The translations under genes and the position numbers were made by a program. From an uncultured Oscillospiraceae bacterium (GTDB lineage: Bacteria > Bacillota > Clostridia > Oscillospirales > Acutalibacteraceae), in NCBI GenBank assembly GCA_949283785.1, contig CASDTR010000035.1, forward strand, positions 45,666-109,665: a DNA stretch of 64,000 bases, in the 5' to 3' direction. The notes beneath the pieces were generated by a model. It made no database searches. It saw only the letters and a program-made list of their open reading frames with translations, and was not told the origin of the DNA. Positions 26,479 to 29,769 of this stretch are shown here, one piece after another; the stretch's first letter is position 1; each line of letters opens with the position of its first letter.

Positions 26479-27702
26479 ATGCACGTTTGTGTAGTAGGAC
26501 TCGGATATATCGGTTTGCCCACGGCTTTGTCCCTGGCGGCAAACAATGTAAAGGTTACGGGAGTTGACTATAACCGTGACCTTACAAAGAAATTGCAGAA
26601 CGGAGAGCTTACCTTTGAAGAAAAGGGTCTCGATCAGCTTTTTGCCGACGCTCTCAAAAACGGTATTGTCTTTTCAAACGAATATGTAGCCGCCGACGCT
26701 TACATTGTAGCGGTGCCGACGCCTTATGAGAAAGACAACAAGAAAATCGATCCCACTTATGTTGTAAACGCCGTAAAGAGCGTTATGGAAGTATGCCCCA
26801 AGGGCGGCATCGTAATTGTGGAATCCACGATTTCTCCCGGAACTATCGACAAGTTTGTACGTCCCGTAATCGAGGAAAAAGGCTTTGTCCTCGGTAAGGA
26901 TATCCACCTTGCCCATGCTCCCGAGCGTATCCTTCCCGGAAATATGCTCTATGAGCTTTCACACAACGCCCGTACAATCGGCGCCGACGAGCCCGAGATA
27001 GGCGAAAAGGTCAAGGAGATTTACAGCAGCTTCTGCAAAGCTCAGATCGTTGTAACGGATATACGCACAGCCGAAATGTCAAAGGTTGTTGAGAATACAT
27101 TCCGCGATATCAACATAGCTTTTGCCAACGAGCTTGTAAAAATCTGCCGCAGCGGCGGAATGGACGTTTACGAGATCATCAAGATAGCAAACCTTCATCC
27201 CCGTGTAAACATCCTTACACCCGGCCCCGGCGTCGGCGGTCACTGCATCTCCGTTGACCCCTGGTTCCTTGTGGGCGATTATCCCGGACTTGCAAACATC
27301 ATTCTTGCGGCCCGTAAGATAAACGACTCAATGCCCGAGTTCGTCCTTGAGAGAATCAATGAAATCATGAAGGAGAACGGCCTCAAGGACGTTACCCGCG
27401 TAGGTCTCTACGGCCTGACATACAAAGAGGACGTTGACGATATCCGTGAGAGCCCCACTCTTCAGATGCTCGAGTGTATGGAGCGCCACCTCGCTTCCGG
27501 CGTAAAGGTATACGATCCCTTTATCTCCGCCGACATAGTTCCCAACCAGTACCATGACCTTGACGCCTTCCTCAATGATGTGGATATGGTAGTCGTACTT
27601 GTGGGACATTCAGAGATCCGCAACAACCTCGATAAGCTCAAGGGTAAGGTAGTTCTTGACACACGTCATCTGCCCGGCCTCGAGGACGCTTACAAAATGT
27701 AA
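26479..27702 (+). CDS. wecC: UDP-N-acetyl-D-mannosamine (UDP-sugar) 6-dehydrogenase
   Basis: 407 residues of the UDP-glucose/GDP-mannose dehydrogenase family. N-terminal Rossmann motif VVGLGYIGLPTAL, VPTPYEKDNKKIDPTYV, ESTISPGT, APERILPGN, then TAEMSKVVENTFRDINIAFANE and catalytic Cys in PGPGVGGHCISVDPWFL (about residue 256). The APERILPG and FRDINIAFANE forms match the WecC/TviB branch rather than UDP-glucose dehydrogenase. It oxidises the C6 hydroxyl to a uronic acid with NAD+. The epimerase WecB that would supply UDP-ManNAc is not in the window. GGAGGGTG precedes the ATG; a strong terminator follows. Confidence 0.92.
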   Translation: MHVCVVGLGYIGLPTALSLAANNVKVTGVDYNRDLTKKLQNGELTFEEKGLDQLFADALKNGIVFSNEYVAADAYIVAVPTPYEKDNKKIDPTYVVNAVKSVMEVCPKGGIVIVESTISPGTIDKFVRPVIEEKGFVLGKDIHLAHAPERILPGNMLYELSHNARTIGADEPEIGEKVKEIYSSFCKAQIVVTDIRTAEMSKVVENTFRDINIAFANELVKICRSGGMDVYEIIKIANLHPRVNILTPGPGVGGHCISVDPWFLVGDYPGLANIILAARKINDSMPEFVLERINEIMKENGLKDVTRVGLYGLTYKEDVDDIRESPTLQMLECMERHLASGVKVYDPFISADIVPNQYHDLDAFLNDVDMVVVLVGHSEIRNNLDKLKGKVVLDTRHLPGLEDAYKM

Positions 27703-27728
27703 TTTTCGGTATTTGATATCCGTAAAGG

Positions 27729-27759
27729 AAAGGACGCAGAGAAATCTGCGTCCTTTTTT
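27729..27759 (+). terminator. Strong terminator of the surface-polymer operon
   Basis: AAAGGACGCAG-AGAAAT-CTGCGTCCTTTTTT, a perfect stem with a T run. Confidence 0.92.
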
Positions 27760-27799
27760 GATGAAAGAGGATATAAATCAAATTTTCCAAAAATAAAAA

Positions 27800-27825
27800 C
27801 CGCCCGAACCGTGAAGGCCGGGCGG
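27800..27825 (-). terminator. Terminator of the small Cys-tail membrane protein gene
   Basis: CCGCCCG pairs with CGGGCGG, and on the minus strand GGTTTTTATTTTTGG follows. Confidence 0.85.
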
Positions 27826-27844
27826 CATTTCGTCAAATTAGATT

Positions 27845-28036
27845 TTAGCCGACTGTTGTTTCGGAGACAAACTCATCGTCACAGCAGGAGCATGAAACAT
27901 AGTTTTCATATTCATCGTGAGGGATAGCCTTTTTCTTAGCCATAAACTTATTTACGGCATAATAGATAGCTGCCGCTACGCCTGCGATTGCCGCAACAAC
28001 TGCAAGAACCTTCAAGAGCTTTTTAACAAAATCCAT
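27845..28036 (-). CDS. Small membrane protein with CxCC tail, unknown function
   Basis: 63 residues from the ATG at 28036, with GGAGGTG 7 bases upstream. One membrane helix (about 7-27, VLAVVAAIAGVAAAIYYAV), a basic stretch (NKFMAKKKAIPHDE) and a tail containing SCSCCDDE. The tail is probably cytoplasmic given the basic residues after the helix, and its three Cys with acidic neighbours could bind a metal or react with thiols. Its own promoter (TTGACT-N17-TATAAT) and terminator support a real gene. I do not recognise the family. Confidence 0.75.
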   Translation of the reverse strand: MDFVKKLLKVLAVVAAIAGVAAAIYYAVNKFMAKKKAIPHDEYENYVSCSCCDDEFVSETTVG

Positions 28037-28081
28037 AAGAAACACCTCCGTTAATTTCAGTTTTCTTTTGCGTTCAAAAAG

Positions 28082-28110
28082 ATTATAAACAACATGAGCG
28101 GAAAAGTCAA
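28082..28110 (-). promoter_or_regulatory. Promoter of the CxCC small membrane protein gene
   Basis: Minus strand TTGACT (28110-28105) and TATAAT (28087-28082) with a 17-base spacer, about 46 bases before the start codon. Confidence 0.8.
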
Positions 28111-28251
28111 TGAATAATCTGTAAAATGTCTAAATTAAAAAATATCAGAAGATTGGTATTTATAAGTTTTAGCTAAAACAAATTTCAAAAACCGCGTAAT
28201 TCTAAAAGTAAGGAGAAACGCCTCTACAGGAAATAATTAAATAAAAAAGAC

Positions 28252-28298
28252 AAAAGACAGGCGTAAAACGGTTTTCAGCCGCTCTCCGTCTGTCTTTT
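28252..28298 (-). terminator. Terminator of the SOS-box small membrane protein gene
   Basis: AAAAGACAG pairs with CTGTCTTTT, with a smaller inner stem (AAAACGG/CCG). On the minus strand TTTTGTCTTTTTTATTT follows. Confidence 0.75.
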
Positions 28299-28342
28299 AA
28301 ATGCAGTTATGAAAGGATTATTTCAAAAAAAGGTGTTGGAAT

Positions 28343-28621
28343 TTATGCCGCTCTTCCCGAATCGGTACCTGTTCTGACTTTTCTGCGGGGAGACCTGGGA
28401 TTCGGCTCAGTGCGTACTCCGGCCGCTTTTCGGTGCGCCGGAATAGCTTCTGCTCGTCTTGCAGCAGCCGATTTTCTGACTGCGGAAATTACGGTGTGCT
28501 TGATTTTAAGGATGATTTTATCCTCAAAATCGATTACTTTTTCTTCATTGAGATATCCGAAAATCAAAAGTCCTGTCGCAAGTATTGAAAATAATATTGT
28601 CAAAATGGAATCAAGTGCCAT
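28343..28621 (-). CDS. Small membrane protein under LexA-type control
   Basis: 92 residues from the ATG at 28621, 8 bases after GGAGG. One N-terminal membrane helix (about 3-23, LDSILTILFSILATGLLIFGY), a short acidic-amphipathic segment (LNEEKVIDFEDKIILKIKHTVISAV), then a very basic, Arg/Pro-rich tail without regular structure. The upstream region has a near-consensus sigma-A promoter with two LexA (CGAAC-N4-GTTC) boxes, so expression is likely DNA-damage-induced. Membrane topology, size and regulation recall SOS division inhibitors such as YneA of Bacillus or SidA of Caulobacter, but there is no LysM domain and no sequence likeness I can claim. Function is therefore inference. Confidence 0.75.
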   Translation of the reverse strand: MALDSILTILFSILATGLLIFGYLNEEKVIDFEDKIILKIKHTVISAVRKSAAARRAEAIPAHRKAAGVRTEPNPRSPRRKVRTGTDSGRAA

Positions 28622-28638
28622 GATAAATACCTCCTCTG

Positions 28639-28707
28639 CGAACATTTGTTCCTCACTTACAATTTGTATTATATCACATCAAAATCAAATGTCAATACAA
28701 ATGTTCG
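28639..28707 (-). promoter_or_regulatory. SOS promoter with two LexA boxes
   Basis: Minus-strand promoter TTGACA (28695-28690), 16-base spacer, TATAAT (28673-28668). Box 1, CGAACATTTGTTCC at 28639-28652, lies between -10 and the ribosome site and fits the Firmicute consensus CGAACRNRYGTTYC at 13 of 14 positions. Box 2 at 28694-28707 (CGAACATTTGTATT on the minus strand) overlaps the -35 and keeps one perfect half-site. Two boxes flanking the core promoter are the classic arrangement for tight LexA repression. A perfect hairpin (TCAGTCCC...GGGACTGA, 28722-28743) without a T run lies just upstream. Confidence 0.85.
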
Positions 28708-28924
28708 ACATTTTTTGACGTTCAGTCCCATTATCGGGACTGAGCTCTGAAAAAGTATATTTCAACTTTCTTGAGGGAAGTATATCACAATATATGGCAG
28801 ATGTCAAGGGGGAATTAACAATATGTTGTGCTTGCCTATGTTTCATAAGGTGTTTTTCAACAACAAAAAACGAAAAAATCAGGCATTTTCGGATATAAAG
28901 ATGAAAAAAGAAAAATTAAATAAA

Positions 28925-28948
28925 AACGGCGTTCGAAAGAACGCCGTT
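28925..28948 (-). terminator. Strong terminator of the yebC-family gene
   Basis: AACGGCGTTC-GAAA-GAACGCCGTT, a perfect 10-base stem with a GNRA-type loop, and TTTTTATTTAATTTTTC on the minus strand. Confidence 0.93.
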
Positions 28949-28955
28949 GAAATTA

Positions 28956-29684
28956 TTATTCCTCGTTTTCCCAGTTGTGCCAGACTGCCTGAACGTCGTC
29001 GTTGTCCTCAAACATCTCGAGCATCTTGCTCATGTTTTTGATGTCGTCCTCGTTTGTGAGGGCAGTGTATGTACTGGGTACATACTCGACCTCTGCCGAA
29101 ACAAAGGTGTAACCTGCTGCCTCAAGAGCGTCTCTTACGGCGCCGAGATCCGATACCTCGGTTCTGATATCGAATACGTCGTCGTCGGTGAGGAAGTCGG
29201 AAGCGCCCGCTTCGAGAGCGTCCTCCATAAGCTTTTCCTCGTCCACGTCCTCTTTCTCGATGAGGATGACGCCCTGCTTTGTAAACATGAAGGAAACGCA
29301 GCCTGTCTGCCCCATGTTTCCGCCGTACTTGTCGAAGTAGTGGCGAACGTCTGCGGCGGTGCGGTTGCGGTTGTCGGTGAGAGCCTCAACTATAACCGCG
29401 ATGCCTGAGGGGCCGTATCCCTCATATACGATTTCCTCATAGTTGTCTGCGTTGCCGTCTCCCGACGCCTTCTTGATGATTCTCTCAATGTTATCGTTGG
29501 GGACGTTATTGGCCTTCGCCTTTGCAATGACGTCTTTGAGCTTTGAGTTTGATGACGGATCGGGGCCGCCTTCACGGACCGCTACGGCGATTTCTCTGCC
29601 TATTTTAGTGAAAACCTTGGCGCGCTGACCGTCGGTTTTTTCTTTTTTACGCTTGATTGTACTCCATTTTGAATGTCCCGACAT
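28956..29684 (-). CDS. YebC/PmpR-family protein (TACO1-like)
   Basis: 242 residues, full length. N-terminal signature [25 protein letters not shown], then [17 protein letters not shown] and the central [53 protein letters not shown], all diagnostic. The family was named for transcriptional regulation, and more recent work links it to relief of ribosome stalling at proline runs; which applies here cannot be read from sequence. ATG 29684, behind AGGAGG. Monocistronic with a strong terminator. Confidence 0.95.
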
Positions 29685-29769
29685 ATAAAATCCTCCTGAA
29701 AAAATATAACTTTAATATTTTATCACAATATTTGAGCCTTTGCAAATACGCAAAGGAATAAAGGACTGT

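Follow-up and report, generated by a model that had tools for sequence, protein, structure and literature searches.

Small membrane proteins encoded behind conserved LexA boxes in a group of Clostridia: an unnamed family of candidate short-lived SOS division inhibitors

Division in Gram-positive bacteria can be delayed by small, SOS-induced, single-span proteins such as YneA and SosA, which are cleared by proteolysis (PMC6851548, PMC13396833, PMC6051672). As described there, YneA of Bacillus subtilis binds FtsW TM7 (PMC13396833), and SosA of Staphylococcus is an SOS-induced single-span protein of 77 residues without a LysM domain, having a conserved stretch just past its helix and a degree of conservation at its very C-terminal end (PMC6851548). 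In Caulobacter, the small single-span division inhibitors SidA and DidA are reported to act on the FtsW/FtsI/FtsN group (PMC4211646), and didA is driven by the SOS-independent WYL activator DriD, which binds a pseudo-palindrome over the -35 element at one distance from the -10 (PMC12340889). A literature search on SOS-coupled division control in the group of Clostridia treated here turned up no paper; in the accessible part of a paper on the C. difficile LexA regulon, neither "cell division" nor "YneA" nor "sulA" is mentioned (PMC4234289).

The window, i.e. the whole stretch of 64,000 nucleotides that was analyzed, holds on its minus strand a gene for a 92-residue membrane protein, which an earlier note had proposed to be a LexA-controlled candidate regulator of cell division. 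The features of this locus are, in window positions:

28346..28621, minus strand: coding sequence of the 92-residue membrane protein, from sequence reading (ATG at 28621, stop codon TAA at 28345-28343)
28346..28351, minus strand: codons of the final Ala-Ala, a degron-like end (final Ala in 100 of the 102 complete pattern-found homologues)
28630..28637, minus strand: ribosome site AGAGGAGG, from sequence reading
28639..28652, minus strand: downstream LexA box GGAACAAATGTTCG, between the -10 and the start codon, ending 17 nt before the ATG
28668..28673, minus strand: -10 element TATAAT of P1, the promoter attributed to LexA control, 16 nt from its -35
28690..28695, minus strand: -35 element TTGACA of P1 (12/12 promoter match together with the -10)
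28694..28707, minus strand: upstream LexA half box CGAACATTTGTATT, fused to and overlapping the -35
28724..28741, no strand assigned: AGTCC-N8-GGACT, a perfect palindrome lying 16 bp further upstream than the half box
28779..28807, minus strand: P2, a second promoter-like site, TTGACA-N17-TATACT with TG before the -10 (11/12 match)

The promoter TTGACA-N16-TATAAT named in the earlier note was borne out by this full match, and so were the LexA box between the -10 and the ribosome site, whose core is perfect and which departs from CGAACRNRYGTTYC at one position on the better strand, and the half box over the -35, where CGAACATTTGTATT at 28707-28694 overlaps TTGACA; the observation as a whole is stronger than first described. 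The Ala-terminal tail, the palindromic element and the second promoter-like site had been missed. A stretch resembling P2, recognized by eye only, lies upstream of the homologue in G002, one of two other genomes compared from the genus.

The protein has a single hydrophobic helix (residues 5-22) and a script-computed net charge of +9 beyond it, in agreement with the N-terminal membrane helix and basic tail read earlier, and it carries a charged motif, EEKVIDFED, before ending in ...DSGRAA. It has no Pfam match. AlphaFold2 predicts helices at residues 2-24 and 26-59 followed by an unordered tail (mean pLDDT 78, pTM 0.33). The gene is adjoined by yebC, and obgE lies 2.6 kb upstream in the window. 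Another small membrane protein, of 66 residues, is encoded at 27848-28045 on the minus strand; it matches no named family above cut-off, and its G002 version differs by two residues.

Both other genomes compared from the genus possess the gene with both LexA boxes kept. The G002 homologue is 49% identical and is placed as in the window, between the UDP-sugar dehydrogenase gene, the gene of the 66-residue membrane protein and yebC. The match in G001 is weak (E 0.02) and broken by a contig end, and both boxes and the promoter are present. Among 200 genomes of the window's bacterial family, members were detected in 80 with a three-sequence profile (E 0.1), in 78 with a 31-sequence core profile (E 0.001) and in 80 with a 59-sequence profile, the last including a probably spurious hit in G090 (a 27-residue match in a 492-residue frame). 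The gene was thus seen in 48 out of 135 sampled genera of this bacterial family. Samples of the order and of the class gave 14 out of 394 (E 0.01) and 2 out of 391 genomes (E 0.001), respectively, every one of them within the same bacterial family, and in these protein searches of family, order and class samples the proteins were accordingly found in one bacterial family only.

Members share a core made up of a hydrophobic helix and, after it, the motif G-[FY]-x2-E-x-K-[LV]-I-x-F-E, in which the second Glu is invariant among 59 sequences and the first nearly so, and total length in the pattern-found loci ranges from 68 to 108 residues (start codons chosen by script). The search for homologues of the 92 residues, as proposed earlier, uncovered an unnamed family: no Pfam or NCBIfam family was matched by more than one of 31 members, all weakly, no PHROGs family by more than two (best E in the region of 0.014-0.02), and the PDB sequences held no relative. 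We also considered and rejected a defense system, as PADLOC gave only three weak matches, one member each. An ObgE-like gene occurs near the family gene in 21 out of 72 loci. These small membrane proteins form an unnamed family of a group of Clostridia, many of which come from animal guts. A match to LexA_DNA_bind occurs in 76 of the 78 genomes with the gene and in 92 of the 122 without a detectable member (Fisher p 1.6e-5), the 76/78 co-occurrence having been counted by eye across two lists and archaeal control genomes giving PF01726 matches as well. The 92 genomes with a LexA match and no detectable member imply that the proposed checkpoint is not universal in this bacterial family, or that another protein performs it there.

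In the first homologue set, a LexA box of at least 7/8, perfect in 19 cases, lies no more than 120 nt from the start in 30 of the 31 loci, compared to 16 out of 588 control windows taken from other parts of these loci; the thresholds of 7/8 here and 8/10 for the palindrome below were chosen after inspection. A further 40, mostly weaker, protein matches comprised 25 with a box and 15 without one at 7/8, and five out of six additional weak matches had one. The promoter was also sought blind to protein, by scanning one genome per species from 84,980 species for CGAACATTTGTNTTGACA-N14-18-TATAAT, which returned 112 loci; the 80 matches listed carry record titles such as Clostridia, Oscillospiraceae, Ruminococcaceae and Candidatus Fimenecus. 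A family ORF lies directly downstream in 106 of the 112 (E up to 1; 104 at E 0.001) according to profile A6, which itself includes 31 of the loci and outside these recovers 73 out of 75 at E 0.001. The older profile A3, built before the scan, gave 105 out of 112 at E 1 and 101 at E 0.001, with several A3 organisms recurring among the 112. Protein-found and pattern-found sets share organisms and were kept unmerged. Of the six misses, L134, L151 and L176 run off the end of the stretch, and the other three are genuine: L123 (by Pfam) and L152 (by eye) have the half-box/-35/-10 promoter before helix-turn-helix genes instead of a membrane protein, possibly SOS-linked mobile-element regulators, and no gene was seen behind the scan promoter in L149.

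Since the scan loci have half box, -35 and -10 in common by construction, the features that count as tests are the gene, downstream box, Ala end and palindrome alone. A second LexA box was found within 110 nt of the -10 in all 106 family loci (73 perfect), and among the first 72 scan loci 70 had a box up to the start codon, compared to 105 out of 9358 control windows. The two boxes are spaced 50-57 bp center to center in 70 loci. The earlier note had made its claim depend on a conserved LexA box upstream of homologues, and such boxes are present both in the first homologue set and throughout the family loci of the scan. With operators conserved across a bacterial family, the gene is almost certainly under LexA control, with LexA expected to bind at both sites, and DNA damage should switch it on.

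The extreme C-terminus is conserved as well. Out of 102 complete proteins from the 112 scan loci, 100 end in Ala (73 VA, 15 AA, 8 IA, 2 SA and 2 TA); L144 and L170 end in Ser, and the tail itself is not alignable among homologues. In the first homologue set the Ala end was seen in 29 out of 30 proteins, as opposed to 5 out of 68 long neighboring ORFs of the same loci. The last Ala is encoded by GCT (22), GCA (19), GCG (17) and GCC (10), with one Ser (n=69), i.e. all four Ala codons are used, which indicates that the constraint acts on the protein. The Ala end is furthermore linked to the LexA box, being present, when four sets of homologues are pooled, in 60 out of 70 box-bearing and 5 out of 22 box-less relatives (p 8e-8). 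A box without the Ala end is found in L075, L091, L092, L094, L261, L316, L322, L329, L341 and L343, the box being perfect in L091, L092, L094, L341 and L343. Membrane-core relatives with neither box nor Ala end are L051 (1486-1665), L052 (495-683), L095, L096 and L097, the first of these having KilAC antirepressor and REP_ORF2-G2P genes as neighbors, which recalls a filamentous-phage-like element.

A small residue followed by Ala at the C-terminus, as in ssrA-like degrons, is thus what these proteins have. The host tmRNA tag, DKNVSLQAA, ends in AA, as do all 23 tags obtained from 26 scanned loci, none of which ends in VA; the commonest end of the family, VA, is in this respect unlike the host-type tags. 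Among three engineered ssrA variants compared in the literature, -LVA was degraded fastest, partly also without ClpXP, which the authors ascribe to FtsH or Lon (PMC11003136; review PMC9382460). Taken together, the conserved Ala end, its link to the box and the behavior of the -LVA tag make it probable that the end is a genome-encoded ssrA-like degron and that the protein is subject to proteolysis. The family would then offer a naturally occurring example of a membrane protein carrying such an end.

Over 70 sequences, net charge averages -0.1 ahead of the helix and +5.3 across the 30 residues that follow, the C side being the more positive in 66, and none of the 70 has a second hydrophobic stretch; as far as sequence tells, all are thus small and single-span like the SOS membrane division inhibitors. 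By the positive-inside rule this charge bias predicts an N-out/C-in orientation with the C-terminus inside, opposite to YneA and SosA. Tsp-type proteases, too, accept small C-terminal residues. The Ala end might therefore be read instead by an extracellular protease of the CtpA/Tsp type, with the protein oriented N-in/C-out as YneA and SosA are, and CtpA is indeed described as acting on both of these (PMC6851548, PMC6051672); with the charge bias of 66 out of 70 members placing the tail inside, we regard this as rather improbable.

Compared to the known inhibitors, the family resembles YneA in being small, with one helix, SOS-type regulation and expected proteolysis, and its helix could bind FtsW as that of YneA is described to do (PMC13396833). 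It differs in lacking a LysM domain and any detected sequence relation, in its predicted opposite topology, in its other C-terminal signal and in its clade-restricted operator layout. The view of the earlier note that the protein has no LysM and looks unrelated to YneA is supported, with no LysM or YneA match in the window protein or among the families matched by the 31 members. The YneA model NF010723 reached its cut-off in none of the 200 genomes of the bacterial family; below cut-off it matched in 99, where among the matches listed mostly the LysM part was covered. A supposed mutual exclusivity of YneA and the family was dropped after 14 small sub-cut-off YneA candidates were inspected: ten could be read as LysM proteins (L248 and L249 partly), with no membrane helix by eye and no box at 7/8, and L251, L252, L254 and L255 yielded a fragment only. 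With SosA, compared by description only, the family shares the small single-span build, the SOS-type regulation, the absence of LysM, a conserved stretch after the helix and conservation at the very C-terminus, which in SosA is partial. The SosA tail is, however, extracellular, functionally required and a proposed CtpA substrate (PMC6851548), to which the charge bias of the family is opposed. SidA and DidA, likewise compared by description, are similar in being small single-span proteins.

On the strength of size, regulation and predicted short life, all of which match YneA and SosA, we lean towards viewing the window protein as a LexA-repressed, short-lived membrane division inhibitor, similar to these in action and unrelated in sequence, which may serve as a brief brake on division during DNA repair. 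In normal growth, LexA on the two operators (the half box over the -35 and the full box after the -10) would shut the promoter. DNA damage would remove LexA, the protein would be made in a burst, and it would insert as one N-out/C-in helix, with the motif E-x-K-[LV]-I-x-F-E next to the membrane and a basic helix at the cytoplasmic face. There it may bind a component of the division membrane, the septal wall-synthesis complex (FtsW/PBP2B group) being the likeliest candidate, and so hold septation back during repair. The small residue and Ala of the cytoplasmic tail would act as a degron for ClpXP and/or FtsH, so that the block would end soon after LexA returns. Counted against this, YneA and SosA need an extracellular part and none is predicted here, and no sequence link to a known division inhibitor was found. 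If correct, an unannotated gene of these 48 genera gains a likely role.

The protein could conceivably be an SOS-induced membrane regulator of some other process, e.g. a protease adaptor or a regulator of RodA-type wall growth, DNA uptake/conjugation or prophage release. The Ala-less, box-less core beside the phage-type genes of L051, together with L052 and L095-L097, would fit such a role, which we nevertheless judge not very likely: the chromosomal gene has a recurring place, with the ObgE-like gene nearby in the loci counted above and yebC and obgE in the window, and viral contigs yielded neither the promoter nor any relative of the element copies that could be confirmed. A phage origin was rejected, as the promoter was absent from viral contigs and 0 out of 163 pattern matches were confirmed as relatives of element-borne copies.

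TisB of Escherichia coli is a LexA-controlled membrane peptide of 29 residues that is not a division inhibitor. A growth stopper of this type would lower the membrane potential and make dormant, tolerant cells rather than act on the divisome, and it would share with our family LexA control, a single short hydrophobic helix and many positive charges; fast removal would also suit a self-toxic peptide. The conserved charged motif, the long region past the helix, the total length of the proteins and their degron-like tail set the family apart from TisB, and no Rfam RNA element was found in 27500-29700, hence no sign of an antitoxin RNA of known type, which makes this alternative unlikely.

The putative division inhibitor may, in addition, be controlled by more than LexA. 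The window copy of AGTCC-N8-GGACT is the only perfect one in the 64 kb. In the full scan set the palindrome is present at 8/10 or better in 67 out of 105 loci, 64 of these having it at 15-17 bp from the half box, and out of the spacers of 4-12 that were compared only 8 recurs. Against control windows, it was found at 8/10 or better in 51 out of 76 loci compared to 96 out of 6456, and at 9/10 or better in 45 compared to 3. Among 71 protein-found loci it lies within 220 nt in 38, as opposed to 12 out of 300 control windows (at least 9/10: 28 and 0, respectively). Seven of those 38 are without a LexA box at 7/8; the firm cases are L317, L320 and L330, plus L260, and of the seven, L074 has a box at 6/8, and the palindromes of L339, L350 and L352 appear weak or accidental. 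In the set of relatives the palindrome-to-exact-TATAAT distance is 10 bp in 15 out of 17 spacings, with TATAAT-like sites in 22 out of 57, so that a DriD-type layout (palindrome overlying the -35, with a constant gap to the -10) is seen in this set only; the window has no TATAAT 10 bp from its palindrome. The exact spacer of 8 and the fixed distances to promoters speak against a hairpin or terminator and favor a protein site. The palindrome thus suggests a candidate site of a second regulator, possibly recoverable via the 18-bp site. A literature search with the letters of the motif found no paper, and the DriD consensus as reported, ATACGAC-N7-GTCGTAT, is different (PMC12340889). In one subclade (L068, L124, L154, L195 and L203) three stacked promoters were seen by eye about 350 bp upstream of the gene, in the order palindrome-N10-TATAAT or similar, a TTGACA promoter with TTGTGGT repeats, and the LexA promoter.

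A more elaborate and decidedly tentative scheme would be a new, lineage-specific SOS checkpoint of pulse type, in which a C-in inhibitor with an inborn ssrA-like degron is paired with another damage regulator, independent of LexA, which recognizes AGTCC-N8-GGACT and has replaced LexA at the gene in box-less relatives. Should this be true, a single 92-codon gene would specify both its LexA-driven production and its destruction by a housekeeping protease, and it would combine the logic of YneA (LexA) with that of DidA (DriD), LexA boxes and palindrome together on one gene being a difference from DidA.

By itself the LexA box of the window proves little, as 15 boxes at up to two mismatches were found in the window and 15.8 were expected by chance from shuffles, and context had to decide. 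That the boxes serve a non-LexA regulator or are mere chance is very improbable, since the window box, in spite of this chance-level count, shares its type of core with dinB and uvrA, is placed like an operator and is conserved in homologues. The host genome (2.4 Mb, 71 contigs) contains 27 perfect GAACN4GTTC sites, 26 of which were examined by script and one by reading. Operator-like sites precede dinB, uvrA, the window gene and an operon of two genes that includes one for a sigma-70 region 4 protein. The core GAACAWWTGTTC is located before dinB (IMS domains) and before uvrA, which follows uvrB, the uvrA box being situated just after a TTGACA/TATAAT promoter; the window core, GAACATTTGTTC, recurs unchanged at uvrA, and its reverse complement stands at dinB. 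Related boxes, CGAACAAATATG and AAACAAATGTTTG, occur in the host lexA promoter. The remaining sites mostly lie inside long reading frames. One site (L012) is in no reading frame and has no gene at operator distance, and a fifth intergenic one, on C47, was not counted as an operator, belonging to a GGGCGAAC...GTTCGCCCTTTT hairpin, terminator-like by eye, that precedes a metallophosphoesterase gene. The two-gene operon (L005, 1414-2071, G000:C13) is a second SOS-type operon of the host genome, with the LexA box CGAACGTTTGTTCG before an ORF of 67 to 76 residues and the sigma-70 region 4 protein. It also has, 69 bp before its LexA box, the long palindrome GTACAGTCCC-N6-GGGACTGTAC, which contains the AGTCC-N8-GGACT core.
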